This document shows positions 1 to 41,668 of a DNA stretch of 64,000 bases, piece after piece. Source of the DNA: Enterococcus moraviensis ATCC BAA-383 (GTDB lineage Bacteria > Bacillota > Bacilli > Lactobacillales > Enterococcaceae); the NCBI RefSeq assembly GCF_000407445.1, contig NZ_ASWB01000004.1, positions 62,001 to 126,000 on the forward strand. Reading direction: 5' to 3'. A program made the translations under genes and the position numbers. Each line of letters begins with the position of its first letter. Position 1 is the first letter of the stretch. Under the pieces are notes generated by a model. The model had not been told where the DNA came from and did not search any database. It saw only the letters and a list, made by a program, of their open reading frames with translations.

Positions 1-1929
1 GTCTATACCGCACAAGTTGATGCCACTGCTAGTTCTAAACTATTAAAAACAAAGGCTACTCCCAAAGGACTAAATCCTGATAATTCAGTAATTTCTGTGC
101 CAAATACGGAACATTTACTAAATGTTTTGGATGTTGAGCCACCAATTGCTACAGCCAAGTTGACGAAGGTCGCGTTAAATGATGCGGAGGCAATCATTGG
201 CTCAAATGTTGATTTGAAAAGCTTTTTTACAACCGTATCCGATAATGTTTCATCAAAAGAAAAAATTACGGCAAAACTTTTAACAACGGATATTCCATCA
301 TTAGTTTCAACTGTGGGCAAAAAAACAATCAAGATTCGTTTAACGGATGAAGCTGGAAATTCAGCTGATTACGATACATTTATTTATGTAGTTGATGATT
401 CTTACCATTGGGGAGAAGACGGTATTATCAAGGGAACTGACTTTAGAATGGATTACAGTGATTGGCCTAGCGAAGAGCAACGACCTCTAGTTATCACTAA
501 CGGAAAGGTTGAAGCATGGCAGTTTGTTAAAGACGAAACAGGAAATATCATTGATGTGACGGATGTAACGGCAGATGAAACATTATTTGGCATCGATATA
601 TCTAAAGTAACAAACGCTGAAGAAGTTGCCCATGTTATAACATTAAAGTTGAAAGACACAACAAAGATGATCTCAGTCACGTTCAATGATCGGACCAAAC
701 CAACTGGGACAGGTAAGCTAACATTTGTTGATTTAGGGGACAATGCGTCTATCGAAAATGCAACCGACTATACCGCTTATCTAACAGACTGGTCAGACAA
801 TGTTTCGGCTAAAGATAAAATTGCTGTAACGCTAAAACCAGGTCAAAACCTAGTGAATACAGTTTCAAAAGTAGGACCAGCTAGTTTTGTAGTGATCTTA
901 ACGGATGAGGCTGGAAATGCAGAAGAAGTGACTGTTCCGATTTTTGTCAAAAATGATGAGATGATAACGAGCAATAAATATGTATTAGATGGACGGGATT
1001 TCAGTATCGCTGCGAAAGATTATCCGACTACAGAAGAAGCTATTTTAACTATGATACGTGAAAAAGGGAAACTAGCACTTTGGGAAATCGATGATGTCAC
1101 GGTTACTGCACTTGATGCGTCCAAAATTTCTATTGATAAAGGGACTTTACCGGGACCCGCAACACCTGGAACGCCAGTTGCCAGTGGTGATTATCAAGTA
1201 ACGCTAAGTTATGGTGAAGGGCCTGCTAAAGTTGAGAAGAACATCAAAGTAACAATCATTAAAAGCGTTTCGACAGTCAATGTAGAATTTGTCGATGATA
1301 CAGGTAAAAAAATTCATGACACCGTTCCTGTCAGTGGAAATATTGGTGGAACAGTTGATTTATCAAAGAACTTAGATGTCAAAGAGGTATTGAATACGTT
1401 AAGCGGCCAAAATTATCAAATTCAAAAAACGCCAGTACCAGAAAATGCTATCCCTGTGAATGAAACAGAATATGCAGTTCAGTACGTTTTTTCTGGGACC
1501 TTGTTTATCTATTCTGCCCCTCAATCTATTGATTTTGGTTTACGGGATGCCGGTATTTTTGGTGTTCGTGTAGAGAAACCTGCGTACGATAAAGAGTTGA
1601 TTATCTGGGATAATCGAACAAAGTTAACGAATTGGACGCTAGATGCGAAATTAGAGTCTTACTTAACAAGTAATGATGGTGAGGGAGCAAAAATCTTACC
1701 TGAAGCTATTCGCTATCGAACAGGTGAGGGAAAAGAAAGCGAGATTATTTTGAATAATGAGAATCAGCCGATTGTTGAAGATTCGCATACGACAACAGGT
1801 CAATACGATGTCAGTGACAAATGGAAGACCGGTGAGCGAGGATTCAAACTAGATGTTCCAGCTGGTGCGGTTCGTGAATTAGGGAAATATAAAGCGACGA
1901 TTGTTTGGACTGTTGGAGCAACACCATAA
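1..1929 (+). CDS. Large modular WxL-domain surface protein (5' end outside window)
   Basis: The frame is open from base 1, so the start codon and signal peptide lie upstream; GTG at 97 is an internal valine. Two tandem Ig-like units of about 180 residues are visible, each with a DNVS-x-K-x-KI segment and an LTDEAGN segment (about bases 140-690 and 697-1260). A MucBP-like stretch follows (VEFVDDTGKK, about 1280-1500) and then a C-terminal WxL domain with the paired motifs NWTL and VWTV. WxL domains bind peptidoglycan or a WxL-interacting partner at the cell surface. This gene heads an operon-like run of nine same-strand genes (1-9981). Very likely an adhesin or surface scaffold; its ligand cannot be told from sequence. 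Confidence 0.85.
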   Translation, partial: VYTAQVDATASSKLLKTKATPKGLNPDNSVISVPNTEHLLNVLDVEPPIATAKLTKVALNDAEAIIGSNVDLKSFFTTVSDNVSSKEKITAKLLTTDIPSLVSTVGKKTIKIRLTDEAGNSADYDTFIYVVDDSYHWGEDGIIKGTDFRMDYSDWPSEEQRPLVITNGKVEAWQFVKDETGNIIDVTDVTADETLFGIDISKVTNAEEVAHVITLKLKDTTKMISVTFNDRTKPTGTGKLTFVDLGDNASIENATDYTAYLTDWSDNVSAKDKIAVTLKPGQNLVNTVSKVGPASFVVILTDEAGNAEEVTVPIFVKNDEMITSNKYVLDGRDFSIAAKDYPTTEEAILTMIREKGKLALWEIDDVTVTALDASKISIDKGTLPGPATPGTPVASGDYQVTLSYGEGPAKVEKNIKVTIIKSVSTVNVEFVDDTGKKIHDTVPVSGNIGGTVDLSKNLDVKEVLNTLSGQNYQIQKTPVPENAIPVNETEYAVQYVFSGTLFIYSAPQSIDFGLRDAGIFGVRVEKPAYDKELIIWDNRTKLTNWTLDAKLESYLTSNDGEGAKILPEAIRYRTGEGKESEIILNNENQPIVEDSHTTTGQYDVSDKWKTGERGFKLDVPAGAVRELGKYKATIVWTVGATP

Positions 1930-1947
1930 CAAATGGAGGAAAGAATA

Positions 1948-2301
1948 ATGAATCAAAAACATTTAGTTTCAGCCTTCTTTGTCTCTGTAGTTGCGGTTGC
2001 CCTATTTTTCAGCTATCCATTGTTTGGAATGGCTGAAGAAAATGGTGGAGCGGTTCAGACAAATGGCGGAATTACCTTTTACGAAGAAACTACATCTAGT
2101 AGCTCGACCGAACAAAGTACGACACCCCCAACCCCATCAAAGCCGACGAGTCCAAAACCTGTTGGGAGATATCCATCAACAGGAGAATTGGTGAAAGCCA
2201 GTCTTGGAGTCAGCGGGGCTGTGTTGGTTGCAATTGTTTTGATCCTGTTCTATTTGAAACGTAAAAAAGAGCGCGAAAACACTGAGGAAAAGGGGGCTTA
2301 A
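1948..2301 (+). CDS. Small sortase-signal-type membrane/cell-wall protein
   Basis: 117 residues. An in-frame ATG at 1933 exists, but GGAGG at 1935-1939 sits 8 nt before ATG 1948, so 1948 is the start. Order of parts: signal peptide (about residues 1-30), mature N-terminus with the strand TNGGITFYEE, a Ser/Thr/Pro-rich linker, then YPSTGE, a hydrophobic helix and a KRKKERE tail. This is the architecture of an LPXTG-anchored protein, but the first motif residue is Tyr instead of Leu. Small proteins of this kind recur in WxL clusters; their exact role is unknown to me. The gene lies 18 nt after the large WxL gene and 4 nt before the next, so it is surely co-transcribed. Confidence 0.75.
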   Translation: MNQKHLVSAFFVSVVAVALFFSYPLFGMAEENGGAVQTNGGITFYEETTSSSSTEQSTTPPTPSKPTSPKPVGRYPSTGELVKASLGVSGAVLVAIVLILFYLKRKKERENTEEKGA

Positions 2302-2305
2302 CAGA

Positions 2306-3106
2306 ATGAAAAGAATAAAAATGAGTCCTCTATTGCTGTTGCCGCTTTTCTTAGTGATGCTCTTGAAAGGTTCAGTACCTGTATACGCAGAAACAACTGG
2401 ACAAGGAACAGGAAAAATTCAGTTTGAAGGAGAATATAATCAAATAATCAAAGATCCAGAACACCCAGAAAATGAAGCAGATCCAGGAGATAGCCCGTCT
2501 ACAAAGGGGGATTTGAGAATTGATTTTGTTCCTCAGTTTGAATTTTGGCAAAACGAGAAAACCACAACGGATGCTGTGTATTTAGGAAATGCTCAACTGT
2601 TCCATGGACAACTTGGAGCTAGAGGTAATTTTGTCCAAGTGTCTGATTATCGTGGGACTGGTAAAGGGTGGAATTTACAAGTTCGTCAAGAAACACAGTT
2701 CAAAAATGATAATACTAAAAACAAAGAATTAAACGGTGCCGTGATTTCCTTAGATCAATCGTGGGCAAATTCAACTAGAAGTAAAGAAGAAGCACCACTT
2801 GTACAAAAAGATGTGATTCGTATTGACAATATTGGGCAAACTTATAATTTAGCTGAAGCTAAGCCTGGTACTGGAGAAGGTACTTGGTCCATTATATTTG
2901 GTGCTTCTGCCGAAAATGCTCAGGGAAAAAAGGAGTCATTAACACCGCGTTTAGACAAAGAAGGCAATCCAATCATGGACCCGAACTTTGATAACAAACC
3001 AATGTATAAAAATGAAGCATTGAAGTTGTCCATACCGGGGGCAACGAAAAAAGATCCGGTAACTTATCAAACGGTGATAACTTGGATTTTATCCGAGCTA
3101 CCATAA
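2306..3106 (+). CDS. Secreted WxL-domain protein
   Basis: 266 residues. Signal peptide about 1-28 (cleavage after VYA). The mature N-terminus has the G-K-I-x-F strand typical of small WxL proteins, then an acidic Pro/Asp linker and a WxL domain that starts near LRIDFVPQFEF. The two signature motifs are GWNL and, near the C-terminus, TWIL. No membrane anchor follows, so retention would be by non-covalent wall or partner binding. The start has a GGGGG Shine-Dalgarno just upstream. It is followed after 29 nt by a second small WxL gene. Confidence 0.85.
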   Translation: MKRIKMSPLLLLPLFLVMLLKGSVPVYAETTGQGTGKIQFEGEYNQIIKDPEHPENEADPGDSPSTKGDLRIDFVPQFEFWQNEKTTTDAVYLGNAQLFHGQLGARGNFVQVSDYRGTGKGWNLQVRQETQFKNDNTKNKELNGAVISLDQSWANSTRSKEEAPLVQKDVIRIDNIGQTYNLAEAKPGTGEGTWSIIFGASAENAQGKKESLTPRLDKEGNPIMDPNFDNKPMYKNEALKLSIPGATKKDPVTYQTVITWILSELP

Positions 3107-3135: not shown

Positions 3136-3894
3136 ATGAAAACTACACACAAATTAGCAAGTGCTGCATTATTAGCAGCAGTCGGCGTAGGTCTTGCAAT
3201 GCCATCAGCAACAAAAGCAGCACCTGAACAAAAAGGAAAAGGAAATATTGAATTCCAAACAGATTTAACAACAAATCCAACGAATCTACCACCCGGTGAA
3301 TCATCAGGTGATGAATTAACAGAACCAACTCAAAATCCTGATCCATCTGCATTGAAAATCGTGTCAGTAACAGATATGGATTTTGATAAGCACGATATTA
3401 TTGCAAATGATTCTGAAAAAACATACAAAGCATTACCATTTACAGATGGTACTCAAACAACTGCTCACTTTGTACGTTTCAGAGATGTTCGTGCCAACGT
3501 TGCTGAAAACTTCTACAGTATTTCCGTTGCACTGACAAAACAATTTACAAGTACAGGAGCAGTTGCTTCTGAATTAACTGGTTCAAAATTAACATACAAC
3601 AATGTTTCTTTAGTAACAGGTACAAATAGCGCTACTTTGCCAACTTCAGCAGCTGTAAAAGCAGTTTCTGATTTAGAATTTGCTGAAGATGGTTCAAAAG
3701 CACAAACAATGTTGACAAATGATCAAAAAGGTAAAGGGTTTGGTGTGTTTGAATTAATGTTTGATACAAACGAAAATGCCAAAGCTGGTAAAGATACTTA
3801 TGATGGTGTGACATTGAAAGTTCCTGGGGACAATGTTTTGAAAGAAGCTAAATACGAAGCTGAAATCACTTGGGCAATCACTGCTGCGCCATAG
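3136..3894 (+). CDS. Secreted WxL-domain protein with degenerate first motif
   Basis: 252 residues. Signal peptide 1-28 (ATKA/AP), a mature strand GKGNIEF, a Pro/Asn/Glu linker, then the WxL domain beginning at LKIVSVTDMDFDKHD. The C-terminal motif is intact (ITWAITAAP), but the first motif, normally W-x-L, reads FYSIS with no tryptophan. AGGAGG lies about 8 nt before the ATG. The codons are strongly biased (GCA, ACA, AAA), unlike some neighbours, suggesting high expression. A stem-loop follows before the partner gene at 4089. Confidence 0.85.
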   Translation: MKTTHKLASAALLAAVGVGLAMPSATKAAPEQKGKGNIEFQTDLTTNPTNLPPGESSGDELTEPTQNPDPSALKIVSVTDMDFDKHDIIANDSEKTYKALPFTDGTQTTAHFVRFRDVRANVAENFYSISVALTKQFTSTGAVASELTGSKLTYNNVSLVTGTNSATLPTSAAVKAVSDLEFAEDGSKAQTMLTNDQKGKGFGVFELMFDTNENAKAGKDTYDGVTLKVPGDNVLKEAKYEAEITWAITAAP

Positions 3895-4088: not shown

Positions 4089-5186
4089 ATGCTAAAAAAA
4101 GTAGCAATCAAACTACTGGGTTTACTATACATAGCTGCAATTATCGTTGTTTCTGCAGAATCAGTTCAGGCAGAAGCGTCGAAAGGAAGTCAAAATTCTG
4201 GTGGTTTCTCTTATGAAGTCATACTTCCGGAAAACCAACATAATCCCGAAGCGGGATACTTTGATTTGAAAGTAACACCAGGACAAAAACAAAAACTTCA
4301 AATCAAAATGAGAAATACTGCGGAAAAGGAGACAACTGTTTTAGTCAGCTTAAATGGCGCCAAAACCAATAGTAATGGCGTTATTGAGTATGGGGAAAAT
4401 AAAATGAAAAACGATGCCTCTTTAAAATATGATTTTAAAGATATCGTAACAGGACCAAAAGAAGTGGTTTTAGCGCCAAAAAGTGAAAAGATGTTGGATT
4501 TAGAAGTGACAGTACCTGACGCTTCTTTTGAAGGGTATATTACAGGCGCGGTCAGTTTGTCAGAAAAAGATCAAGAGGGACTGGACTCTAAATCGGATGA
4601 AGGGATGATCAAAAATAAATTCGTTTATCAAACCGGTATTCAATTAAGTGAAGGGGATACAGATCAAATAAAACCAGATTTAAAACTGAATAAAGTTTAC
4701 CCTGAGTTAAATAATTATCGTAATTCAATATTCATTAATTTTTCAAACATTCAGCCAATTTATGTGAATGATATGACCGTAGAGGTTCAAATCATGGGGA
4801 AGGGCTCAGATGAAGTTTTATACGATACTAAAAAAGCCAAAATGCGGATGGCCCCCAATACATTGATCGATTTCCCAGTATCAATGAACGGTGAAAAAAT
4901 GGTGCCAGGAGATTATCGGGCAAAAATTTTAGTAACGACAAAAGCTGGTGATCGTTGGCAGTGGGAACAAGGATTTAAAATTACAGATGAAGATGCGGAT
5001 AAATTTAATGAACAAGATTTGACTCTAGTTCAAGAATCAGGCATCGATTGGGTACTGATCGCAAGCGTTGTGGGTGGTATTTTAGCTTTAGTGTTCATTA
5101 TTTTCATTTTGATTCGTCTGATGAAAAAAAATACTAAGAAGAAAAAAAGCAAAAGAAAAACTTCATCACCAAAGAAGAAAAAGTGA
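4089..5186 (+). CDS. WxL-interacting protein (DUF916 + DUF3324)
   Basis: 365 residues. Signal peptide about 1-30, then the DUF916 domain (WxL-interacting protein peptidoglycan-binding; it starts at SYEVILPENQ and contains GYFDLKV and FEGYITGAVS). The DUF3324 domain follows (WxL-interacting protein host-binding; RMAPNTLIDFPV, GDYRAKI). The C-terminus has one transmembrane helix (about 320-343) and a cytoplasmic Lys-rich tail. The family is always found with WxL proteins and anchors or presents them at the membrane/wall interface. Two paralogues occur in this window at 33241 and 41669. Confidence 0.9.
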   Translation: MLKKVAIKLLGLLYIAAIIVVSAESVQAEASKGSQNSGGFSYEVILPENQHNPEAGYFDLKVTPGQKQKLQIKMRNTAEKETTVLVSLNGAKTNSNGVIEYGENKMKNDASLKYDFKDIVTGPKEVVLAPKSEKMLDLEVTVPDASFEGYITGAVSLSEKDQEGLDSKSDEGMIKNKFVYQTGIQLSEGDTDQIKPDLKLNKVYPELNNYRNSIFINFSNIQPIYVNDMTVEVQIMGKGSDEVLYDTKKAKMRMAPNTLIDFPVSMNGEKMVPGDYRAKILVTTKAGDRWQWEQGFKITDEDADKFNEQDLTLVQESGIDWVLIASVVGGILALVFIIFILIRLMKKNTKKKKSKRKTSSPKKKK

Positions 5187-5211
5187 TGAGTACTAGAGGA
5201 GGCATAGAAAA

Positions 5212-5877
5212 ATGGAAATATTAGATTGGTTATTTATTGGGTTACTTTCCTTAGCTATCCTCTGTTTTGTATTTATGCTGATCTTTTTGGTCGTGACAAT
5301 ACTAACTGGTAAAAAAATTCGTCGACTGAAAGTCAAGAAACCAAAACGTAAGCCTAAACTAAAAAAATGGAAAAGAGCTTTCCGTACGTTGATGAAAAAA
5401 CGCAAACAACAAATTCGTTGGGTGCTTATCTTTTTAGTGATAGGAATCATCGGAATGAGTGGGGCGTTTTACAGTCGCTATTATCAAGCAACTAATCTAG
5501 GGAAAAAAGATTCGGATGCGTTGGTTCAAGGCTACTTTTTAATTTCAAGTATCGAGGAGCAACTAAACCAAGTGCAGGGGACAGATAACCCTAAAAAAGT
5601 TCAAGGAACGTTATATGACTTGTCGGCGCGGCTTGCCAGTTACGGGGCACATTCTGCAAATGGGCGTTTATCTGAAGAAGGGCAAAAACAATTGAATCGC
5701 TTATATTCAAACATGAAAGAATTAGGAGTGAATATGGGAAGTCAAACGGTAGAGTCATTAAATGACCAAGAAACATTAGACGGGTACAAAGCAGACTTGA
5801 AGAAAACCCAAGACAACCAGAAAAAAGTATTAAAGTATTTCCGAATCAACGAAGCGTCTTTAAAAGGAAAGAAATAG
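5212..5877 (+). CDS. Two-helix membrane protein of WxL cassette, function unknown
   Basis: 221 residues. One transmembrane helix at 5-30, a very basic stretch (KKIRRLKVKKPKRKPKLKKW), a second helix at about 69-88, then a soluble helical C-terminal part of about 130 residues that would face outside if the N-terminus is also outside. No enzymatic motif is recognised. AGAGGAGG lies upstream of the ATG. It sits between the WxL-interacting gene and the signal peptidase pair, which suggests a role in export or assembly of the cassette's products; that is inference only. Confidence 0.6.
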   Translation: MEILDWLFIGLLSLAILCFVFMLIFLVVTILTGKKIRRLKVKKPKRKPKLKKWKRAFRTLMKKRKQQIRWVLIFLVIGIIGMSGAFYSRYYQATNLGKKDSDALVQGYFLISSIEEQLNQVQGTDNPKKVQGTLYDLSARLASYGAHSANGRLSEEGQKQLNRLYSNMKELGVNMGSQTVESLNDQETLDGYKADLKKTQDNQKKVLKYFRINEASLKGKK

Positions 5878-5909
5878 TCATTTTCTTGCACGTTAAGGAG
5901 GGCTCTTTG

Positions 5910-6608
5910 ATGAGTAGACATAAGCCAAACGCTCTTCAACATAAAAAAGGTAGAAATAGGAAAAGAAGCCATCCAACTCATCCTACTTCTAAAAAATCTG
6001 TGAAACAACAACATTTTAGGAAACAATCATTGAAACAAAGAAAAAAAAGGCAGCGAAAAAGAGCTAAGAAAATACTTTTAGAGTTGATTTCTAGTCTTAC
6101 AATAGCTGTGTTGGTCATTTATCTAGTTTCTTTGTTTACCTTTGTGATTCCGCAAATAGAAGGTTTTGGAATGGCCCCGAATTTGAAAGAACCGAATCGT
6201 ATTTTCGTTAACCGCTTAGGAGAAGTCAAACGATTTTCCCTCGTTTATTTTCATGTGCCAAAACGTTCCAAAGAAGTTTCTACGCGTAGGATCATTGGTC
6301 TACCAGGAGAAAAGATAGCATACAAAGAGGATACGCTGTTGATTAATGGACAAGAACAAGTGGAACGTTTTTTAGCTGAAGAGTTGCAAAAAGCTAAAAA
6401 AGAAGGGTATCAATTAACCGAAGATTTTAGTACAGAAGAGATAGCAGGAACAGAATTAGGCAGGATACCCCAAGGGAAATATTTAGTTTTAGGAGATAAT
6501 CGTTCTTTCGCAACCGATAGTCGATATTATGGGCTAGTTGATGAGAAGGAAATCATAGGTGTTGCCACAATGAAACTACTCCCACTTCATGAAATGATGA
6601 AATTGTAG
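5910..6608 (+). CDS. Signal peptidase I paralogue lacking both catalytic residues
   Basis: 232 residues. The start is ATG 5910, set by AAGGAGG at 5895-5901. It has a very basic N-terminus (1-54), one transmembrane helix (about 55-80), then an S26-type signal peptidase fold. The box that carries the catalytic serine (GxSMxP) reads GFGMAP, with Gly87 in its place. The general-base lysine box (KRVIGLPGD) reads RRIIGLPGE, with Arg126 in its place. The later box GDNRS...DSRYYGLV is well kept. The fold is therefore preserved but proteolysis is not expected. The next gene is an intact paralogue. SipA proteins of streptococcal pilus loci are a known precedent for such pseudo-peptidases acting in assembly. 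Confidence 0.82.
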   Translation: MSRHKPNALQHKKGRNRKRSHPTHPTSKKSVKQQHFRKQSLKQRKKRQRKRAKKILLELISSLTIAVLVIYLVSLFTFVIPQIEGFGMAPNLKEPNRIFVNRLGEVKRFSLVYFHVPKRSKEVSTRRIIGLPGEKIAYKEDTLLINGQEQVERFLAEELQKAKKEGYQLTEDFSTEEIAGTELGRIPQGKYLVLGDNRSFATDSRYYGLVDEKEIIGVATMKLLPLHEMMKL

Positions 6609-6626
6609 AAAAGATAGGTAGATGAT

Positions 6627-7337
6627 ATGGGTTCTAAAAGAATAAATAAAGAACAGCAAAAAGAAGTATATAAGGGAAATCGAAAAAGTCCATATCCTCC
6701 GAAAAAAAGAAAAAGACGATCATCTGTGAAGAAAAAGCAACTTCAGCGTTCCAAAAAGAATAAAAGAATGGAGAAAAATAAACGAGCGAAACGGGCCAAT
6801 TATTTAGAAACGATCGCATTTCTAATTTTCGCTATTCTATGTATCAATTTTATTCTGAACTATCGTGCTCATTTTGTGGATGGTCATTCAATGAATCCAA
6901 CTTTTCAAAATGGAGACCGTTTGCTTATTCATAAAAGTAAAAAAGTTGAACGCTATGACATTGTGACTTTTGAGCCTAAAGATGAGCCGGGTGAATCGTA
7001 TGTCAAACGTGTGATTGGACTACCTGGAGATCGTATCGTTGTGAAGAATGATCGATTGTATCTAGTTGAGCATCTAGATAAAAATGTAGATCTTTCCCGA
7101 TGGATCGATGCTGGCGTTTTACCAGATAGCACTGTAGTGGTGAGAATTGCACAGGAATCTATTTTGCACTTATTAAGTAATGTAGAAGAAATTCCGAAGG
7201 ATCATTATTTTGTTTTGGGAGATAACCGTTCCAATTCTAAAGATAGTCGTTCGATTGGATTTGTGAGCAATGATCAGATTGAAGGAGTGGTTACCTTTAG
7301 ATTTTACCCATTCAATCGATTTGGATTTGTTCATTAA
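6627..7337 (+). CDS. Signal peptidase I (active-site residues intact)
   Basis: 236 residues. A highly basic cytoplasmic N-terminus (1-57) is followed by one transmembrane helix (about 58-78) and an S26 serine/lysine-dyad peptidase domain. Catalytic Ser88 is in GHSMNPT and Lys127 in VKRVIGLPGD; the GDNRSNSKDSR box is present. It would remove signal peptides from Sec-exported proteins on the outer face of the membrane. It starts 18 nt after the catalytically dead paralogue and is probably dedicated to the WxL cassette, the housekeeping enzyme being elsewhere. Confidence 0.88.
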   Translation: MGSKRINKEQQKEVYKGNRKSPYPPKKRKRRSSVKKKQLQRSKKNKRMEKNKRAKRANYLETIAFLIFAILCINFILNYRAHFVDGHSMNPTFQNGDRLLIHKSKKVERYDIVTFEPKDEPGESYVKRVIGLPGDRIVVKNDRLYLVEHLDKNVDLSRWIDAGVLPDSTVVVRIAQESILHLLSNVEEIPKDHYFVLGDNRSNSKDSRSIGFVSNDQIEGVVTFRFYPFNRFGFVH

Positions 7338-7356
7338 ACTGTAAAGTGAGGTTCGT

Positions 7357-9981
7357 ATGAGAAAGAAAATTCATTTATTTATTAAAGACAACGGACTTTA
7401 TATGTTATTAAGTCTAGCGTTGCCTGTGCTGATCATGATTATTGTATATGCAAAAATCGGTATTTATCCAGGAAGTGAGCATCGAACTATTTTAGCAAGT
7501 GATGCTTTTTCTCAATATGTTAATTTTTATGCTAGTTTAAACAACGTATTTAAAGGCGATCAGAGTATTTTTTATACATGGAATAGTTCGATGGGGTTGA
7601 ATTATTGGGCCTTTATTGCGTATTATTTAGGCGGAATATTTAGTCCGCTGGTTCTCTTCTTTTCAAGTCTTCAGCTTCCAGATTTTCTTTATTATCTGAC
7701 TTTGCTGAAAATCGGTAGTTTGGGCGGAGCATTTTGGATTTTTTCTTATCAAACGTTCCGTTTACCTAAGTGGAACCATGTTGTATTGAGTGTTTCATAT
7801 GCATTGATGTCGTTTGTTATTGCATACTCTGAAATTCTTATGTGGTTAGATGCTATGGTTTACCTGCCTTTGATTGTTTTGGGAATCCATCGTTTAATGG
7901 ATAAGAAAAAGCCAGTACTTTTGTTTATTAGCTATTTTCTGTTATTTGTGTCGAACTTTTATATGGCATTTATGGTTGGCTTGTTTACGTTTGGCTATTT
8001 TATCGCACGTTTGTTGACGGATCGTTCAACGTATTTGCAACGTTTTCCTATGTATTTGATCACGTCATTCTTGGCAGGTGGGGCATCGATGGTGATGGTT
8101 TTGCCGACTTTACTGGATTTGAGAAACAATGGTGAAGCGCTTAGTAAAATCGTTCGATTAAAAACAAAAAACACTGGACCTTGGGATTTAGTGATCAAAA
8201 ATATGGTAGGAATCTATGATAGTACGAAGGTTAAGTCCACTCCTTTTATTTATATCGGGTTGTTGGCTGTTGTTTTTTGTTTGTTCTTCTTTGTGACGAA
8301 GAAAGTAACATTACGCCAAAAGATTTGCTATGGCAGTCTACTGCTGGTCTTAGTGGCGAGTTTCTATTTAGAACCGTTAAATCTCTTTTGGCAAGGGATG
8401 CATACGCCAAACATGTTTAATTTTCGATTTAGCTTTTTGTTTTCTTTCTTGGTATTAGTGCTAGCGGGTTATGGTTTTGAAAAATTTAAGCCTGATGATT
8501 TTGATCAGTTGGTAACCATTGTTTTGGGTGTGATAGGTACGTATATGGCTGTAAAATTTATTACGGGTCAAGGTGGTTATAACTATATTAAATCAATCAA
8601 TTTTATTTGGACACTCGTTTTTTTAATCAGCTACTTGTTCCTTTTTGCTTTAGTAAAAAGAAAGAACGGTTTTAGAAGAGGGATTGGGGTCTTTTTTATT
8701 CTATTGGTTTGTGTAGAGGCAGGACTTAATAGTTATGGTATCGTTGAGGGAATTCAAACGGAGTGGCATTATCCGGCTCGAAAATACTATGCAGATCCCT
8801 ATCAACCAATCAAAGAACTAGTGGATCAAACGAAAGATGATAATGACACGTTCTATCGTTTAGAGAATTTGAATCCTGTGTCACCCAATGATGCGTTTAA
8901 TTATGGTTATAGCGGCGTCAGTATGTTCTCTTCTATTCGAAATCGTCATTCGTCTTACTATTTGAATGCATTAGGGTATCGGTCGTTGGGAACGAACTTG
9001 AATATTCGTTATGCCAATAATACTCTTTTGATGGATTCATTAGTAGGCATAAAATACAATCTAGCGAAAGAGGATGTTCTGAAATTTGGCTATAGTAAAA
9101 TCTCTGAAAAAGGAGAGTATGCACTTTATGAAAACAAGTATGCATTGCCTTTAGGGATGTGGACAGATGATGCAATCTATGAACCTGGTGCAGTCGAATC
9201 TCAAGCAACACTCTTGAATCATTTAGCGAAAACAAACGAAAATTTCTTCACGTTTAGTGACTTGGAACAAGTGAATACGGTGAACACGCATGAAGAAAAG
9301 GGACGAATCAATCAAACGGATATTGTGACCTACAGTCCTCAAAAGCAAAATGAGCCGATGGTGTTGGAATGGACAGTAGACGTGCCAGCTAATAAACAAG
9401 CATATGTCAGTATTTTTCCAGTAGAGTATAGAACCTTTGGGAGCCCCGCGTTGACGTTAGAAGTAGATGGTGTGGTGTATGACAGTTCCGTTAGTGAGAC
9501 TGGGCAGTATTACTCGTTAGGTTACCATAAAGAAGCCAAAAAAGTCTCATTTAAAATAACTATTTCTAATGTTAAAAAGAAAGATGTTTTTCAAATCGTT
9601 CAACCCGATGTTGCTTTGTTAGATGCTGATAAATTCAGTCGATCTATTGAAGCAATCAAGGCCAACGGGGTAGAATTTAAAGTAAAAGGGCGTAGAGCCA
9701 AAGCGAAAGTGTCACTGGATCAAGATCAAGTCCTCTTCACTAGTATCCCGTATGATAAAGGTTGGAAAGCCTATATTGATGGGAAGAAAGTGGCTATTCC
9801 TACTTTTAAACAGGCCCTTTTGACGTTACCAGTAAGTGCTGGCGAACATGAAATTGAATTTGTTTTTTTACCGCAAGGATTTTTGACAGGCGTTGCGTTA
9901 CTGATTATATGTATGGGTAGTTTTATTGGCTATGTTTGGATAGTGCGTAAGAAAGAGACAGATCCTTTTTATATGGAGTAG
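7357..9981 (+). CDS. YfhO-family polytopic membrane protein (GT-C-like)
   Basis: 874 residues. It has about a dozen transmembrane helices in the first half (residues 15-450) and one at the C-terminus (about 845-865). A large soluble domain carries the YfhO signatures (GYSGVSMFSS, YDKGWKAYIDGK). YfhO in Bacillus is a GT-C-fold protein that transfers sugar from a lipid carrier to lipoteichoic acid on the outside of the membrane, with a CsbB-type partner; no such partner is adjacent here. It is the last gene of WxL cassette 1, which suggests glycosylation of a wall polymer or of exported proteins. The family call is firm, the substrate unknown. Confidence 0.85.
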   Translation: MRKKIHLFIKDNGLYMLLSLALPVLIMIIVYAKIGIYPGSEHRTILASDAFSQYVNFYASLNNVFKGDQSIFYTWNSSMGLNYWAFIAYYLGGIFSPLVLFFSSLQLPDFLYYLTLLKIGSLGGAFWIFSYQTFRLPKWNHVVLSVSYALMSFVIAYSEILMWLDAMVYLPLIVLGIHRLMDKKKPVLLFISYFLLFVSNFYMAFMVGLFTFGYFIARLLTDRSTYLQRFPMYLITSFLAGGASMVMVLPTLLDLRNNGEALSKIVRLKTKNTGPWDLVIKNMVGIYDSTKVKSTPFIYIGLLAVVFCLFFFVTKKVTLRQKICYGSLLLVLVASFYLEPLNLFWQGMHTPNMFNFRFSFLFSFLVLVLAGYGFEKFKPDDFDQLVTIVLGVIGTYMAVKFITGQGGYNYIKSINFIWTLVFLISYLFLFALVKRKNGFRRGIGVFFILLVCVEAGLNSYGIVEGIQTEWHYPARKYYADPYQPIKELVDQTKDDNDTFYRLENLNPVSPNDAFNYGYSGVSMFSSIRNRHSSYYLNALGYRSLGTNLNIRYANNTLLMDSLVGIKYNLAKEDVLKFGYSKISEKGEYALYENKYALPLGMWTDDAIYEPGAVESQATLLNHLAKTNENFFTFSDLEQVNTVNTHEEKGRINQTDIVTYSPQKQNEPMVLEWTVDVPANKQAYVSIFPVEYRTFGSPALTLEVDGVVYDSSVSETGQYYSLGYHKEAKKVSFKITISNVKKKDVFQIVQPDVALLDADKFSRSIEAIKANGVEFKVKGRRAKAKVSLDQDQVLFTSIPYDKGWKAYIDGKKVAIPTFKQALLTLPVSAGEHEIEFVFLPQGFLTGVALLIICMGSFIGYVWIVRKKETDPFYME

Positions 9982-29706: not shown

Positions 29707-31953
29707 ATGAGAAAGAAAAGGCAACTGTTATTAGTGCTTGGTACGCTCGTTTTGTTTCTAGTACTGATGTTAAATTTCTTTCATTCAACTGATAAAAAGA
29801 TATTAGCCGAGGATCAAACAAAAGAAACCACAACAAATCCCATTAATTCTTATTTCACGTGGAAAAATGACTGGCAAAAAAATAATGCGGTTAAAGTGAC
29901 TTCCATCAGAAATGAAAATAAAACGATCAATCCTCCTACACTTTATAATCGAGCAATTGCGAACGCTTTTAGTTTTGATCTTTTAGAAGGAGATACGAAA
30001 CCTGTATTAAACTCTTCTGCCTATACGTTTGGGCTGGTTACACCAATTGAAGCTATAGAATGGCCTGTATTTCAATCAGTTGATCCGACCGTCTACTATG
30101 AATACAGTAACCCCAGCTATTGGAAAGGACTGCCAGAAAATGTGGATGGAAAATTTACATCCAGCAAGAGTAATTGGCCAAATGTGGCTCATTGGAGCGG
30201 ATGGCCAAATGGACAGGTGAAAACAACCGCTTATGTTGTTTACCCTAAAGGTCCAACCACAAATGATTGGCTCTCCTATACATTCTCAGATGAGGTACCA
30301 AATAATGTTACGATGGAGATTTCTACACAAGTAAAGGTGGACGATTCCTATGAAAAACCAGTAGCGCCTCAAGTGTCATGGCTGTGGGGCTTAGGTTGGA
30401 ATATTGAAATCCCCCAAGTCGTAAAAGCTGTGTTTAAGGATGTCGACGATCCAAATGGGGCATCGATTTCGGCAGATGAAGTTTTAGGTTATGGTGGTGA
30501 AATGGCAGATTCGGTTGTTTTAAAAAACAAAGAACTAGTTGGTTATCATTTTGTATCATCACAAGTAGTTTTGGGCCCAACAATTAATTCAAGTAGTTTT
30601 GGTACAGGAATTAGAGAACCAAGCTCTTTTTACTACGATGAGAAAACGAGCTCGATCAAAGAGCCAACAGCAGATACGAGCTGGACAACAACGATAGATA
30701 AGCAGCAAAAAGGTATCGTATTCTGGTATAAAAAGAAAGCACCTGCTATTACATTGGATAAAAAAGTGAATCAGTCGTCCGCAATGCTCGGAGACGAATT
30801 AACGTATACATTGACAATGGAAAATAAAGGTGATGAGGCATTATTGAAGGGAACCATAAAAGATAGCTTACCAGCTGGGTTAGCTAAGCCAAATAGGCTC
30901 CTATTGGGTGATAAATCATTACCAGAAGGAACGGCTAATAGTGAAGGACACTATTTCACCTGGAATAGCGCTACACGTGAGTTAACTGTTCATGTAGGAA
31001 CTATTTTAGAAAATGAAAAGAAACAACTGACCTATGAAACAAGCATTACTACAGGAGTATCTGGAGAGGAAATGGTGAATACGGCCATTTTGACGGGGGA
31101 AAACACCACTCAAAAGCCACAAGGACAAGCGACAGTAACGATCGTTGATCCGTGGAAAGTGACGTTTGAATCAAATGGTGGAAGTAGTATTCCAGAACAA
31201 CGTGTGAAAGACGGTGAATTGGCCCAACAGCCAAATGATCCAAGTTATCCTAATAAAGTGTTTGTAGGCTGGTTTGAAGACAGTCCCCTAACCACACAAT
31301 GGAATTTCACAACGCCTGTGACACGAGATATCACGCTTTATGCAAAATGGCGCAGTAAGATAGTGGACCCAAATAATGGGGTTGATCCATTAACACCGAT
31401 TGACCCTAAAGATGAATCAGACAAGCCAACGAATCCAACGAGAGAAGATTTGCGAATTGAATATGTATCCGATTTTGATTTTGGTACTCACAAAAATACT
31501 GCAAGTAAATTGGCATTAAAATCAGCGGGAGATCATGGCAAAGCAGCAAACGATACAACTAAGACCGTGCCGTCATTTGTCTCCATTATTGATGACCGAC
31601 CAAATAATAATACAACTAGTTGGTCGTTACAGGCGAAAGCTTCTACTTTTAAAGATGAGAAGGGTGAACCCTTGAAAGGGGCAAGACTTCTTCTTTCAGA
31701 CTTGAATTATGCAGACAATGGAAAAGAGAGACCGTGGGTAACAAAGGATGTTGTTGATTTATCGGGAGACTATGTTCCGATAACGGATACTTTAGGTAAA
31801 AAAATAGGTAATGGGACTTGGTCTTTAGCCTTTGGCAAGTTAGATTCTAATCAGCGCTCAACAGGGGTAACGCTTGATATCGCACAAGGATACGGCAAGA
31901 AACAGGCAGAATACTCAACAACTATTGATTGGGAGTTAGTAGTCGAGCCATAA
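29707..31953 (+). CDS. Large modular WxL-domain surface protein (cassette 2)
   Basis: 748 residues from ATG 29707. GGAGG at 29689-29693 is 13 nt away, and an out-of-frame ATG at 29699 encodes Met-Lys-Lys-stop overlapping this start. Signal/membrane segment about 5-25; an unrecognised adhesin-like region to about 355; a DUF11/isopeptide-type repeat (about 360-480, LDKKVNQSSAMLGDELTYTL); an InlB-type repeat (about 485-550, VTFESNGGSSIPEQ, GWFEDSPL, LYAKW); a Pro/Asp linker; and a C-terminal WxL domain with motifs SWSL and DWEL. A probable adhesin held at the wall through its WxL domain. Confidence 0.85.
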   Translation: MRKKRQLLLVLGTLVLFLVLMLNFFHSTDKKILAEDQTKETTTNPINSYFTWKNDWQKNNAVKVTSIRNENKTINPPTLYNRAIANAFSFDLLEGDTKPVLNSSAYTFGLVTPIEAIEWPVFQSVDPTVYYEYSNPSYWKGLPENVDGKFTSSKSNWPNVAHWSGWPNGQVKTTAYVVYPKGPTTNDWLSYTFSDEVPNNVTMEISTQVKVDDSYEKPVAPQVSWLWGLGWNIEIPQVVKAVFKDVDDPNGASISADEVLGYGGEMADSVVLKNKELVGYHFVSSQVVLGPTINSSSFGTGIREPSSFYYDEKTSSIKEPTADTSWTTTIDKQQKGIVFWYKKKAPAITLDKKVNQSSAMLGDELTYTLTMENKGDEALLKGTIKDSLPAGLAKPNRLLLGDKSLPEGTANSEGHYFTWNSATRELTVHVGTILENEKKQLTYETSITTGVSGEEMVNTAILTGENTTQKPQGQATVTIVDPWKVTFESNGGSSIPEQRVKDGELAQQPNDPSYPNKVFVGWFEDSPLTTQWNFTTPVTRDITLYAKWRSKIVDPNNGVDPLTPIDPKDESDKPTNPTREDLRIEYVSDFDFGTHKNTASKLALKSAGDHGKAANDTTKTVPSFVSIIDDRPNNNTTSWSLQAKASTFKDEKGEPLKGARLLLSDLNYADNGKERPWVTKDVVDLSGDYVPITDTLGKKIGNGTWSLAFGKLDSNQRSTGVTLDIAQGYGKKQAEYSTTIDWELVVEP

Positions 31954-31967
31954 GGGAGAGGAGAAGC

Positions 31968-32306
31968 ATGAAAAAATTGTTTTACAGTATTTGCTTTGGC
32001 TTGTTCTGTTTCTTGTTCGTCAGTGGACCGGTTGTTAGTCAAGCTAACGGCATTACCTCAAATGGAGGGATTAGCTTTACACCTGCTCCAAAAGAGCAGA
32101 CACAAAGCAGTCAAAGTGAACCACAAAAGTTAGATCCCACAATGGAAACAAAAGTAGAAACAGGAGCTAAGGATTCTAACACGAGTAAAGGAATCTTTCC
32201 TAAAACTAACACAGAGAATAGCCACTTGAAGATTTATTTGGGAATAGGACTATTAGCTCTGTACCTAGTAATAAGTGTTATAAGGAAGAAGCGATTAAAA
32301 AATTAG
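31968..32306 (+). CDS. Small sortase-signal-type protein (cassette 2)
   Basis: 112 residues. The start is ATG 31968 after GAGAGGAG; the frame is open further upstream but overlaps the WxL stop. It has a signal peptide (about 1-27), a mature strand SNGGISFTPA, a Gln/Ser/Glu-rich linker, then FPKTNTE, a hydrophobic helix and an RKKRLKN tail. It has the same layout as the protein at 1948, but the motif is FPKTN, with Phe for Leu and Asn for Gly, so ordinary sortase A cleavage is doubtful. It starts 14 nt after the large WxL gene. Confidence 0.7.
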   Translation: MKKLFYSICFGLFCFLFVSGPVVSQANGITSNGGISFTPAPKEQTQSSQSEPQKLDPTMETKVETGAKDSNTSKGIFPKTNTENSHLKIYLGIGLLALYLVISVIRKKRLKN

Positions 32307-32362
32307 ATATATTGTAATCCATTTACTTTATATAAATCGAAAAACGAGAGAGGAAGACAAAA

Positions 32363-33148
32363 ATGAAATTAAAAAAAGTGATTATTGGCAGTACTTTAGC
32401 AGCAACTATCTTAGGAGGACTAGGTGCTCAAACCGTACAAGCGGCTGAATATCCGTCTGCAACAGAAGCTAAAAGTGAAGGGAAAGTAACGTTTACAGAA
32501 GGTGGTCCTGAAATCGTTGACCCAACTGATCCAGATATCCCTATCGCACCAGTTGATCCAACGGACCCAACAAATCCAACAAAACCTATAAATCCAGGGA
32601 AAGCGGATTTAATGATTCAATATGTATCGGATTTTGATTTTGGTACACATTCAAATAGTCTAAAAGCATTGAAAGCAAATGCAAAACCAGATTATGCGTT
32701 TGCGCTAGATGCACAAGGCAATCGAACAGGTGATTTATATGCGGTGCCATCGTTTGTTTCAACGAAAGATGTTCGTGCCGAAAGAACAGGATGGGAGTTA
32801 ACAGTAACTGCTTCTAAATTCACCTCTTCAAAAGGAACAGAATTAAAAGGAGCCGAGGTTACACTTAAAGACCTAACATATAATACACCAACAAATCCTA
32901 TTGGGACTGCACCAACAGCAGCAACTGGTAATAAAATCCTAACACCTGCAACTGAAACAACTGTTGCAACGGCAGGTGATAATAGTGGGATTGGTTCATG
33001 GTCACTAGGTATGGGTGCATTATCAACAGATGAAAAGGCAGTTCAAGGGGTTGAGTTGAATATCCCTCAAAACTCTTTAAAAGAGAATGACACGTATAAA
33101 GCAACCTTTGACTGGGAATTAAAAGCTGATCCAACTGTGGCGCCGTAA
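32363..33148 (+). CDS. Secreted WxL-domain protein (cassette 2)
   Basis: 261 residues. Signal peptide 1-28 (VQAA), mature strand EGKVTFTEGG, a Pro/Asp/Thr linker built from DPTDP-like units (about 50-80) and a WxL domain (ADLMIQYVSDFDFGTH) with both motifs intact (GWEL and DWEL). It resembles the WxL domain of the large protein upstream more than those of other cassettes, suggesting matched binding to the same partner. AGAGAGGAAG precedes the ATG. Confidence 0.88.
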   Translation: MKLKKVIIGSTLAATILGGLGAQTVQAAEYPSATEAKSEGKVTFTEGGPEIVDPTDPDIPIAPVDPTDPTNPTKPINPGKADLMIQYVSDFDFGTHSNSLKALKANAKPDYAFALDAQGNRTGDLYAVPSFVSTKDVRAERTGWELTVTASKFTSSKGTELKGAEVTLKDLTYNTPTNPIGTAPTAATGNKILTPATETTVATAGDNSGIGSWSLGMGALSTDEKAVQGVELNIPQNSLKENDTYKATFDWELKADPTVAP

Positions 33149-33175
33149 TTGATGTAAACTAATTCAACAAATAAG

Positions 33176-33222
33176 AGATCGTTAAGATTCAGATAGTCAT
33201 ACGAATCTTAACGGTTCTTCTT
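33176..33222 (+). terminator. Stem-loop between WxL and WxL-interacting genes (cassette 2)
   Basis: CGTTAAGATTC (33180-33190) pairs with GAATCTTAACG (33203-33213) with weaker pairing outside, then a TTCTTCTTTT tail. It occupies the same place in the cassette as the hairpin at 4016-4064. Confidence 0.65.
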
Positions 33223-33240
33223 TTAGAAAGGTGACAATAA

Positions 33241-34329
33241 ATGAAAAGAAAATGGTTTCTCTACTTATTCGGCCTTTTCTTTCTTTCAAGCCTATTTTTC
33301 ATAACAGCTGTTGCTGATGAACCAAAAGAAGAGGCGAATAAAGGAACAGGTGCCGCATTTAGTGTATCCCCGATATATCCAGAAAATCAAAAAAATGGGA
33401 AAAATGGGTATTTTGAACTGAATGTCTTGCCAAAACAAAAACAAGTTTTACAGATCGAACTACAAAACTACTCGGAAAAAACGATCACCGTGGATGTCGA
33501 GGCAAATCGTGCTACAACAAGTGACGCAGGAATAACTAGCTATAAAAAAAGTACGCGAGAAAAGGAGGAGAGTCTAAAAGTAGATTTTGAGTCTTTGGTG
33601 CAGATAGAAGAACAAGCAATCACCTTACATGCGAAAGAAATAAAAAAAATCAATATTACGCTGCAAATGCCAGAAGAATCTTTTAATGGTCAAGTATTAG
33701 GTGGGATTCATTTTTCTCAAAAGCCTGACGAAAAAGAGAAAAATGAAAAGAAAAATGCTGTATATAATACATTTTCCTATAGTATTGCTGTACTTTTAAC
33801 AGAGAATAAGCAACAAGTGGAAAACGAATTAAAATTGGTTGATGTATTTGCAGATCAAAGAAATTATCGTAACTTTATTGAAGCAAGCATCAAAAATACT
33901 GCACCAATAATGATCAAAAACTTAGCAATCAAAGCAGAAATATACAAGAAAAATTCTACAAAGATTGCTTATCAAGCAAATAAAAGTGCACTCAGAATGG
34001 CTCCTAATTCAATGTTTAATTTTGGGCTGGATTTACAAAATACAGAATTGATTTCAGGGGATTATACGTTAAAAATGACCGCGAATGCAGACGGAAAGGA
34101 ATATAATTTTTCAAAAGACTTTAAAATCAGTCGAAAACAAGCAAATGAACTCAATGATCAAGCTGTTTATATAGAAAAAAAGGATAATAAACAATTATAT
34201 CTGCTTATTGCCGGTATTATTATTGTATTGGTCGTAATACTTATTTTAATAAAACGAAACAGAACCAAAAAGGCGGAACTACAAAGAAAAAAAAGTAAAA
34301 ACAAGAAAAGAAAAAAGAAGAGAAAGTAA
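33241..34329 (+). CDS. WxL-interacting protein (DUF916 + DUF3324), cassette 2
   Basis: 362 residues. Signal peptide about 1-26; DUF916 (FSVSPIYPENQ, GYFELNV, FNGQVLGGIHFS); DUF3324 (NYRNFIEASIKN, LRMAPNSMFNFGL, GDYTLKM); one transmembrane helix (about 318-336) and a strongly basic cytoplasmic tail. It presents or anchors WxL proteins at the membrane. AGAAAGGTGA lies just before the ATG. It is the last intact gene of cassette 2; a glycosidase fragment follows. Confidence 0.9.
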   Translation: MKRKWFLYLFGLFFLSSLFFITAVADEPKEEANKGTGAAFSVSPIYPENQKNGKNGYFELNVLPKQKQVLQIELQNYSEKTITVDVEANRATTSDAGITSYKKSTREKEESLKVDFESLVQIEEQAITLHAKEIKKINITLQMPEESFNGQVLGGIHFSQKPDEKEKNEKKNAVYNTFSYSIAVLLTENKQQVENELKLVDVFADQRNYRNFIEASIKNTAPIMIKNLAIKAEIYKKNSTKIAYQANKSALRMAPNSMFNFGLDLQNTELISGDYTLKMTANADGKEYNFSKDFKISRKQANELNDQAVYIEKKDNKQLYLLIAGIIIVLVVILILIKRNRTKKAELQRKKSKNKKRKKKRK

Positions 34330-40882: not shown

Positions 40883-40997
40883 TCGCCGTAAGAACGGTTG
40901 GTTTGAAAGAGAGAGTCAGTACTAACTAGAGTATCCATTCAGTTATTTAAACTGGGATGATATCATACAGAATTTTAACAACAAGGAGAGAATTTAG

Positions 40998-41582
40998 ATG
41001 AAAACAAACAAAATTTTAGCAGGATTGGCAACAATTGCCATCGTTTTTAGTTCAAGTACACTTGCAAATGCAGAAGAAGTTGCAAGTCAAGGGTCAAAAA
41101 GCAATGTCGGATTTACATCACCGACTGAGGGGGCACTAACATTAGTGAATGTCGCTGATTTTGATTTCGGTTCTCATCCGATCTCAGCTCAAAATGAAGT
41201 ATATAAAAGCCAAACAGATACTGTGACAACGATTCAAGACATCCGTGGTACAGAATCTGGCTGGACTGTACAAGTTGCTCAAAACGGACAATTTAAAGTA
41301 GATACAGATGAATTAACAAATGCGCAAATCACATTGAAAACACCAACGATTTCGAGCGATTCAACAGGATCAGCTACCGTTAAAACAGATGTCGTTTTAA
41401 ATACAGATGGGTCAAGCGCAACGATTTTGGATGCAGCAAATGGATTAGGTAACGGGGTAACGATCGAACGCTTTGCAAAAGATGCCGCTACTTTAGATGT
41501 ACCGGGAAAAACAGTTAAAGTCGCAAAACAATATGAAACAACATTGACATGGACATTGTTGGATCAACCAGGAAATAATTAA
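40998..41582 (+). CDS. Secreted WxL-domain protein (cassette 3)
   Basis: 194 residues, the shortest WxL protein here. Signal peptide 1-26 (ANAE), mature strand KSNVGFTSP, almost no linker, then the WxL domain (LTLVNVADFDFGSHPIS) with motifs GWTV and TWTL. ACAAGGAGAG precedes the ATG. Synonymous codon choice is strongly biased, as in the WxL gene at 3136, which suggests high expression. A stem-loop follows before the WxL-interacting gene. Confidence 0.88.
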   Translation: MKTNKILAGLATIAIVFSSSTLANAEEVASQGSKSNVGFTSPTEGALTLVNVADFDFGSHPISAQNEVYKSQTDTVTTIQDIRGTESGWTVQVAQNGQFKVDTDELTNAQITLKTPTISSDSTGSATVKTDVVLNTDGSSATILDAANGLGNGVTIERFAKDAATLDVPGKTVKVAKQYETTLTWTLLDQPGNN

Positions 41583-41595
41583 TACAAATATAGAA

Positions 41596-41632
41596 ATGGA
41601 GCGGGACGACAATGTATGTTAGACCGCTCCAT
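41596..41632 (+). other. Intra-cassette stem-loop without T-tract (cassette 3)
   Basis: ATGGAGCGG (41596-41604) pairs perfectly with CCGCTCCAT (41624-41632). No T run follows, so it is more likely an mRNA stabiliser or processing site than a terminator. It has the same cassette position as the hairpins at 4016 and 33176. Confidence 0.6.
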
Positions 41633-41668
41633 AACGTGTACATAGCGATAAAAAATGGAGGGATTTAT

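Follow-up and report, generated by a model that had tools for sequence, protein, structure and literature searches.

A signal peptidase-like protein without the Ser-Lys dyad as a candidate assembly factor in WxL cassettes of Enterococcus

What might a signal peptidase homologue do in a surface protein cassette once its catalytic residues are gone? The question is raised by a WxL gene cassette of Enterococcus moraviensis ATCC BAA-383, found in a stretch of 64,000 nucleotides of contig NZ_ASWB01000004.1 (assembly GCF_000407445.1, positions 62,001 to 126,000), referred to here as the window. At 5910..7337 of the window, on the + strand, lie two adjacent paralogues of the S26 peptidase family, as a first-pass annotation made from the letters had described; both match Pfam Peptidase_S26 (127.4 bits for the first and 136.6 bits for the second, cut-off 22.9). 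We call the first the dead S26 and the second the live S26. The dead S26 is best explained as belonging to a distinct and apparently old S26 subfamily, which is predicted to keep the signal peptidase fold and seems to have lost the Ser-Lys chemistry.

Catalytic residues of the two S26 paralogues

5910..6608, + strand: dead S26 (putatively non-catalytic), 232 aa, with a long polybasic N-terminal tail, one transmembrane helix and an outer S26 domain
6168..6170, + strand: codon of Gly87, in the column of the nucleophile Ser (alignment; codon counted by eye)
6285..6287, + strand: codon of Arg126, in the column of the general-base Lys (alignment; codon counted by eye)
6510..6512, + strand: codon of Ala201, in the column of the box E Ser, E. 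coli Ser278 (alignment including the E. coli stretch)
6627..7337, + strand: live S26, canonical signal peptidase I with Ser88/Lys127 (Pfam, NCBIfam, alignment)
6888-6890 and 7005-7007, + strand: codons of the live dyad, Ser88 and Lys127 respectively (counted by eye)

Aligned with 151 relatives, the dead S26 has Gly87 in the Ser column and Arg126 in the Lys column and retains the GDNRS box, and the live S26 has Ser88 and Lys127 at the catalytic columns. The first-pass annotation had read all of this correctly, but in its account of the dyad it overlooked that the box E Ser is also replaced, by Ala201. This Ser is credited with a part in the stabilisation of the catalytic Lys (PMC4049620, in the portions of the paper drawn on here). 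By family profile the dead S26 belongs to the S26 fold of the type I signal peptidases (S26A; SpsB, EF3073), from which it differs in the missing Ser-Lys dyad, in the box E Ser, usually changed in its subfamily, and in its long polybasic tail. Structure prediction also indicates that the signal peptidase fold is kept. Automatic annotation assigns the protein to the NCBIfam equivalog sigpep_I_bact (126 bits, cut-off 47); the label “signal peptidase I” is very probably wrong, and the protein, to judge from its residues, is very probably not a peptidase.

The subfamily to which the dead S26 belongs has 142 distinct members (distinct in their last 150 residues), and Ser and Lys occur together in none of them. 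Ser is present in its own column in 77/142, and the box E Ser in 49/142 (93/142 are without it), compared with 86/87 other S26 proteins. The residue preceding the Ser column is aromatic (Tyr in 125/142, Phe in 16/142). Among 97 Arg-type proteins, i.e. those with Arg in the Lys column, Met88 is found in 97/97, Gly85 in 92/97 and Glu58, at the edge of the transmembrane helix, in 90/97; the invariant residues all lie within the outer domain. The conserved lesion is the replacement of Lys by Arg. The Ser column drifts between Ser, Gly, Ala and Met, and the Gly/Arg pair of the window is one state among several.

The Ser kept by 77 members raises the possibility that these are still proteases, which use Arg or some other base. 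We consider this very unlikely, given that Arg is unworkable as a general base, that the helper Ser of box E has been lost in 93/142, and that Ser swaps freely with Gly, Ala and Met. On the best tree of 81 dead-group sequences the Ser column must have switched between Ser and another residue at least 17 times (16-18 on bootstrap trees), and supported branches force 8 of the changes.

Occurrence and descent of the subfamily

A search of the genus covered 22 genomes with 12-27 S26 homologues each, and the dead type was found in 22/22. From it 100 loci were taken, comprising 10 stretches of the E. moraviensis genome itself and 90 places picked from the matches listed in the search. Together with the window these contain 153 S26 open reading frames (ORFs), of which 56 are Ser/Lys, 46 Ser/Arg, 36 Gly/Arg, 10 Ala/Arg and 5 Met/Arg. 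As Arg occupies the Lys column in 97/153 and the remaining 56 are all Ser/Lys, chance can be excluded as the source of the dyad loss. Upstream of the 97 Arg-type genes, the gene for O6, a small membrane protein, comes directly before the S26 gene in 95, a gene for the WxL interacting protein (WxLIP) is present in 92 and a WxL gene lies within the fetched stretch in 91. The misses are two loci with a WxL gene between O6 and S26 (L095 and L132, identical in position to L190 and L209); the others are due to fetched stretches that stop short.

These first loci were picked by likeness to the dead protein. A second search used an alignment of O6, and 40 further places were added. Over all loci there are 177 distinct O6 genes (distinct in their last 120 residues), with an S26 gene within 1300 bases downstream in 173, behind an inserted gene in 3 and absent from the stretch in 1. 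Writing the residues of the Ser and Lys columns as a pair of letters, the first S26 after O6 is SR in 95, GR in 48, AR in 16, MR in 6, SQ in 2, AK in 2, and AM, GV, SK and S-gap in 1 each; in the S-gap member the Lys column reads Leu by eye. The dyad is thus absent from 172/173 distinct S26 genes directly downstream of O6. The sole SK case, at L314, is an enzyme of the live partner type, scoring 180 bits on the live and 106 bits on the dead profile. At this locus (G018:C5, 2089-6013) O6 is followed only by the live S26 and a YfhO-family gene, and the dead gene is missing. The 25 distinct cassettes found only via O6 are SR in 13, GR in 6, SQ in 2, MR, AR and SK in 1 each, and without S26 in 1; the O6 profile was built from dead-gene cassettes, and the search is therefore free of selection for the state of the dyad but still selects for the cassette. 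In L190 and L209 (E. rivorum by name) and in L277 a WxL gene or another long gene stands between O6 and the dead S26, showing that the pair survives separation.

The first-pass annotation had proposed to survey whether the Gly/Arg substitutions are conserved beside WxL genes, and to regard Ser/Lys orthologues as a sign of local mutation. It is the loss of the dyad that is conserved (172/173), and not the Gly/Arg pair itself, whose Ser column varies. Ser/Lys was found in 0/142 subfamily members and in 1/173 proteins in first position, namely the partner-type enzyme of L314.

In a tree of 47 hand-picked rows, with the dyad columns removed and the odd members (AK, AM, SL and L244) left out, dead, live-partner and other S26 proteins form separate groups, with support of 100/99 for the dead and 100/100 for the live group. 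A quick tree of 136 rows is less clear. The R/K label of the Lys column needs 2 changes (with L247, an AK protein, counted as R), and nine housekeeping rows sit inside the R set with support of 80, so that a single origin of the dead group does not follow from this tree by itself. The 136- and 81-row trees were built, after removal of the two dyad columns, from representatives of less than 60% identity within each dyad class; loci L143-L164 and rows of fewer than 130 aligned residues were excluded. The plainest history would be one early loss of Lys, after which the nucleophile position was free to vary between small residues and Met; the two AK members would then need either a return of Lys or an early branch.

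The window dead protein is 90% identical to its Enterococcus plantarum counterpart. Compared with the E. plantarum orthologues, the ratio of nonsynonymous to synonymous substitution rates (dN/dS) is 0.166 for the dead and 0.198 for the live gene, and 0.05-0.08 for O6, WxLIP and YfhO. The value of 0.166 indicates that the dead gene is kept by purifying selection. One could still suppose that it is a dying duplicate of the live gene, considering that both catalytic residues are lost and that one cassette (L314) has no dead gene, but it is present in every one of the 22 genus genomes, in further genera and in a second family, it is under selection, and it belongs to a separate old clade. This makes such decay extremely unlikely, and on these grounds, together with the repeated changes of the Ser column, local mutation or decay was rejected. 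A recent tandem duplication of dead and live genes was also rejected, as they fall into separate old clades and are 20-33% identical within 52 pairs. Given how many conserved copies there are, the dead S26 probably aids the building of the WxL surface complexes and is not a defunct enzyme.

Beyond the genus, a sample of the family (105 genomes, 17 genera) contains O6 in 32 genomes of 5 genera, and the dead-type profile (E <= 1e-54) matches 31 genomes, all within those 32. Other genomes of the family, such as G027 and others of group g3, have many S26 genes but match neither O6 nor the dead-type profile, with up to 23 S26 matches in one genome (G027). The dead type is found in 75/80 named loci, with hosts including Enterococcus plantarum, crotali, caccae, ureasiticus, quebecensis, termitis, rivorum, ureilyticus, larvae, canintestini, dispar and phoeniculicola, and Vagococcus allomyrinae. 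The five named loci without it (L246, L248, L250-L252) have Ser/Lys enzymes and no WxL gene. E. faecalis is not among the names of the 80 loci, so that the survey does not extend to its cassettes. Outside the family of the window, loci L262-L275 and the class-sample loci L253-L258 were examined. A second family of the order, including the V. allomyrinae genome, has the same order of WxLIP, O6 and dead S26, with types SR, GR and GV. Ten stretches of further families (L254-L258, L270-L272, L274, L275) carry Ser/Lys enzymes and no WxL genes within the stretch; in L270, L271, L272 and L275, from another family of the order, these are tandem Ser/Lys S26 pairs outside WxL loci. The profile score was rejected as a test of the dead type outside the family, as ordinary Ser/Lys enzymes of the order and class samples score 184-199 bits, and reach there was judged from residues and neighbours only.

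The E. moraviensis genome has matches to 15 S26, 34 WxL, 16 WxLIP and 7 YfhO genes (one YfhO match weak and partial). The dead type accounts for seven of the 15 S26 genes, and each of these stands behind a full-length O6 gene, of which the genome has seven; live S26 and YfhO follow four of the dead genes but not the other three. Four Ser/Lys S26 genes lie outside WxL cassettes (L049-L052).

The cassette and its membrane proteins

97..1929, + strand: C-terminal part (MucBP and WxL domain) of a large WxL protein (Pfam WxL 33.3 bits, MucBP)
1933..2301, + strand: short LPXTG protein of the EF2685/EF0750 family (NCBIfam NF053819 94.3 bits, cut-off 47)
2306..3106, + strand: small WxL protein (Pfam WxL 146.4 bits)
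3136..3894, + strand: small WxL protein (Pfam WxL 85.3 bits)
4089..5186, + strand: WxLIP (PGBD, HBD and transmembrane helix) with a basic C-terminal tail (Pfam WxLIP_PGBD, WxLIP_HBD; tail from the sequence)
5212..5877, + strand: O6, small membrane protein of 221 aa (no Pfam match)
7357..9981, + strand: YfhO-family membrane protein, glycosyltransferase-like (Pfam YfhO 736 bits)

A Pfam/NCBIfam scan gives the gene order, all on the + strand, as WxL, LPXTG, WxL, WxL, WxLIP, O6, dead S26, live S26 and YfhO. Small WxL, large WxL and WxLIP genes thus occur together, as in a WxL (csc) cassette. The open frame of the large WxL protein continues upstream of the window and encodes 1276 aa in the genome. 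Judged by eye, the signal peptides at the start of four secreted precursors of the window look ordinary and have small-x-Ala sites. By eye, a good Shine-Dalgarno sequence (taaggaggg) precedes the start ATG of the dead S26 at 5910. No terminator-like site was found on the + strand from 4257 to 7630, which fits one operon, though the scan performs at chance level: neither promoters nor terminators were predicted in excess of shuffled sequences (33 vs 32.1 and 7 vs 6.8, respectively). Further WxL/WxLIP loci lie at 31363-34155 and 40445-42568 of the window and have no O6 or S26 match, so the same genome has cassettes with and without the O6-dead S26 module.

The near-constant partners of the dead S26 are WxLIP and O6, and not the live paralogue. 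Live S26 and YfhO follow 52 of the 97 Arg-type genes of the genus set, neither follows 43 and YfhO alone follows 2. Over all loci a Ser/Lys S26 comes directly after 92/172 dead genes and is absent after 80/172, of which 78 have at least 700 bases beyond them and 2 have the end of the stretch no more than 500 bases away. The first-pass annotation had suggested that the dead protein binds the active one, and a regulatory partner of this kind, forming a heterodimer that tunes or targets cleavage by the live paralogue, would agree with the 92 adjacent pairs, with gaps of under 50 bases in 46/52 pairs of the genus set and with the basic tails of both proteins. However, 80 dead genes have no live S26 beside them, the live S26 is tied more closely to YfhO (52/52 in the genus set), and the dead-live distance correlation is no higher than that of other pairs. 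It remains a minority reading, which we regard as unlikely; in a variant of it a housekeeping S26 could be the partner instead. The correlations, from 45 of 48 full cassettes, are r 0.74 for dead-live, 0.78 for dead-O6 and 0.79 for dead-WxL, and all 15 pairs of six families lie at 0.70-0.88. They were rejected as uninformative for naming a contact partner, since all cassette genes co-vary, which reflects co-inheritance and not contact.

Live S26 and YfhO are read as one optional module, with a tie that is not strict, since in the named loci L219, L221, L242 and L244 a dead-live pair is followed by other genes. The module perhaps serves the glycosylation and processing of a cassette protein. 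Glycosylation is a guess: the YfhO protein is related to PgfM1/PgfM2 and scores far below their cut-offs (NCBIfam PgfM1 256.5 vs 1400). In L043, L044, L045, L188, L196, L208 and L237, YfhO is followed by genes whose products, of about 325 and 245 aa, begin like lipoproteins; both are present in six of these loci and the second alone is listed for L045, and other ORFs lie behind the window YfhO.

The cassette membrane proteins share strongly basic segments, which hydrophobicity and charge suggest to be cytoplasmic. The N-terminal tail of the dead S26 has a median of 64 residues and a net charge of +25 (n=97), that of the live S26 42 residues and +12 (n=51), the O6 loop +19 (n=90) and the WxLIP tail +10 (n=92). 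Three short housekeeping S26 proteins of the genome have tails of 5-6 residues with +1 to +4. In O6 the polybasic loop connects two hydrophobic helices at the N-terminus, and another, all-helical part is also present (AlphaFold 2 model, pLDDT 91.3); no PDB match at E <= 0.001 was found for its fold, which does not by itself make the fold novel. Lys45 and Lys49 of O6 are nearly invariant; at a guess, they could form a pairing with Glu58, conserved in the dead S26. These features might be taken to mean that only the tail, the transmembrane helix and a contact with O6 matter, the outer S26 domain serving as a passive wedge or membrane spacer. The shared basic segments, Glu58 and the two Lys residues would suit such a role, but the invariant residues of the dead S26 are all in the outer domain, and we find it quite improbable. 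The basic tail of E. faecalis sortase C is reportedly linked to focal membrane sites. Basic tails of LPXTG proteins are mentioned in the excerpted text of PMC10107303.

Possible function and relation to known systems

On balance we favour the reading that the dead S26 is a SipA-like non-catalytic assembly factor for WxL complexes, placed in a membrane hub by polybasic tails, and consider it probable, if by no means certain. This starts from features of the sequence itself (the subfamily, the loss of the dyad and its conservation, the cassette membership and the charged segments), from which we infer the lack of activity, the holding of peptides, the formation of a hub and the hand-over to WxLIP. 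The basic cytoplasmic tail and single transmembrane helix would place the dead S26 with O6 and WxLIP in the same anionic membrane patch. The outer S26 domain would hold, uncut, the signal peptide or fresh N-terminus of the WxL and LPXTG proteins of the cassette, and the held cargo would be handed to WxLIP; it is the gene order that suggests these preproteins as cargo and WxLIP as receiver. Cleavage would be left to an ordinary signal peptidase. This would be a housekeeping enzyme or, in the roughly one half of cassettes that carry it together with YfhO, the live paralogue. In this respect the annotation, which had suggested a chaperone or assembly factor for WxL proteins, agrees with our preferred reading, the conserved loss of the dyad beside WxL genes being observed and the role itself conjectural.

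Several observations weigh against this reading. The Ser kept in 77/142 members is, by sequence, compatible with residual or altered activity in those proteins. Basic tails also occur away from WxL cassettes: L049 (6975-7826 in the same genome), a Ser/Lys S26 outside WxL loci that falls in the partner clade of the 136-row tree, has an N-terminal tail of 100 residues with +32. The distance correlations single out no contact between cassette members. Finally, 9/16 WxLIP matches of the genome have no O6 or dead S26 alongside, which means that neither is a general requirement of WxL assembly.

A narrower form of the same idea, with the opposite effect on processing, is that the dead domain protects signal peptides, competing with the active peptidase and delaying release of the preprotein until the complex is built. 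The predicted retention of the fold, the conserved Met88 and Gly85 and the ordinary-looking signal peptides of the four window precursors would be compatible with this; the aromatic residue before the Ser column, on the other hand, could block a peptide rather than hold it. We rate protection of this kind as improbable.

The assembly factor reading draws on SipA of Streptococcus pyogenes pilus loci, and what the annotation had stated of SipA agrees with the consulted portions of PMC4049620: SipA has Asp48 and Gly85 at the two dyad sites, shows no detectable activity, keeps its cleft and is essential for pilus polymerisation, and mutation of Asp and Lys at or near the former active site has no visible effect. 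The dead S26 resembles it in having an S26 fold, here predicted, without the dyad, and differs in its residues (Ser, Gly, Ala or Met with Arg across the subfamily, Gly/Arg in the window). It differs also in its setting, as no pilin or sortase families were found among the nine window proteins scanned with Pfam and NCBIfam. In the comparison with structures that the annotation had called for, the profile score is 158 bits against 4me8, a signal peptidase I, and 37 against 4n31, placing the dead S26 nearer to the ordinary Gram-positive enzyme than to SipA. SpsA of Staphylococcus provides another inactive signal peptidase paralogue alongside an active enzyme in the same organism, and is described in the excerpts of PMC12445088 as missing two conserved catalytic residues and dispensable, with SpsB active and essential. 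A dead paralogue adjoining an active one is likewise found in the window (5910-7337) and at 92/172 dead genes. The spsA and spsB genes are said to be adjacent; SpsA reportedly does not belong to a surface protein cassette, and its substitutions are said to differ from those of the dead S26.

The clusters described in the portions of PMC9772566, PMC10599100 and PMC1534035 drawn on here contain, like that of the window, WxLIP, LPXTG and both small and large WxL genes; they differ in that O6, S26 and YfhO are not given as members, and no export or assembly factor is named in these portions. The word “peptidase” is absent from PMC9772566 and PMC10599100, and PMC1534035 has two mentions of signal peptidase, each concerning its processing of cluster proteins. 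A search of the open-access literature, within the text that it covered, found no dead signal peptidases in Enterococcus or in WxL loci, in line with the annotation's remark that none had been described there, and no paper in which WxL and YfhO occur together. As far as these sources extend, dead signal peptidases are already known from SipA and SpsA, and what is new is their widespread occurrence in a WxL setting.

The dead subfamily offers a concrete candidate for a factor that assembles WxL complexes on the cell wall, with seven copies in this genome, and O6, which nearly always precedes the dead S26, is a second, unnamed membrane partner that marks the whole system. Loss of the dyad with a kept family profile, known from SipA, is seen here in a system without pilins or pilus sortase, and because it also occurs outside the pilus setting, a general chaperone role of dead signal peptidases becomes testable. 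More tentatively, and with rather less confidence, we suggest that these cassettes may encode a multi-copy WxL assembly machine that works without a pilus sortase and consists of WxLIP, O6 and the pseudo-signal-peptidase, with live S26 and YfhO as optional parts. Basic segments would cluster the components, and the dead S26 would capture signal peptides or N-termini for WxLIP. Pseudo-signal-peptidases may then have evolved repeatedly as secretion chaperones, for pili and for WxL proteins. If this is true, they would be a general class of secretion chaperone and not odd relics.
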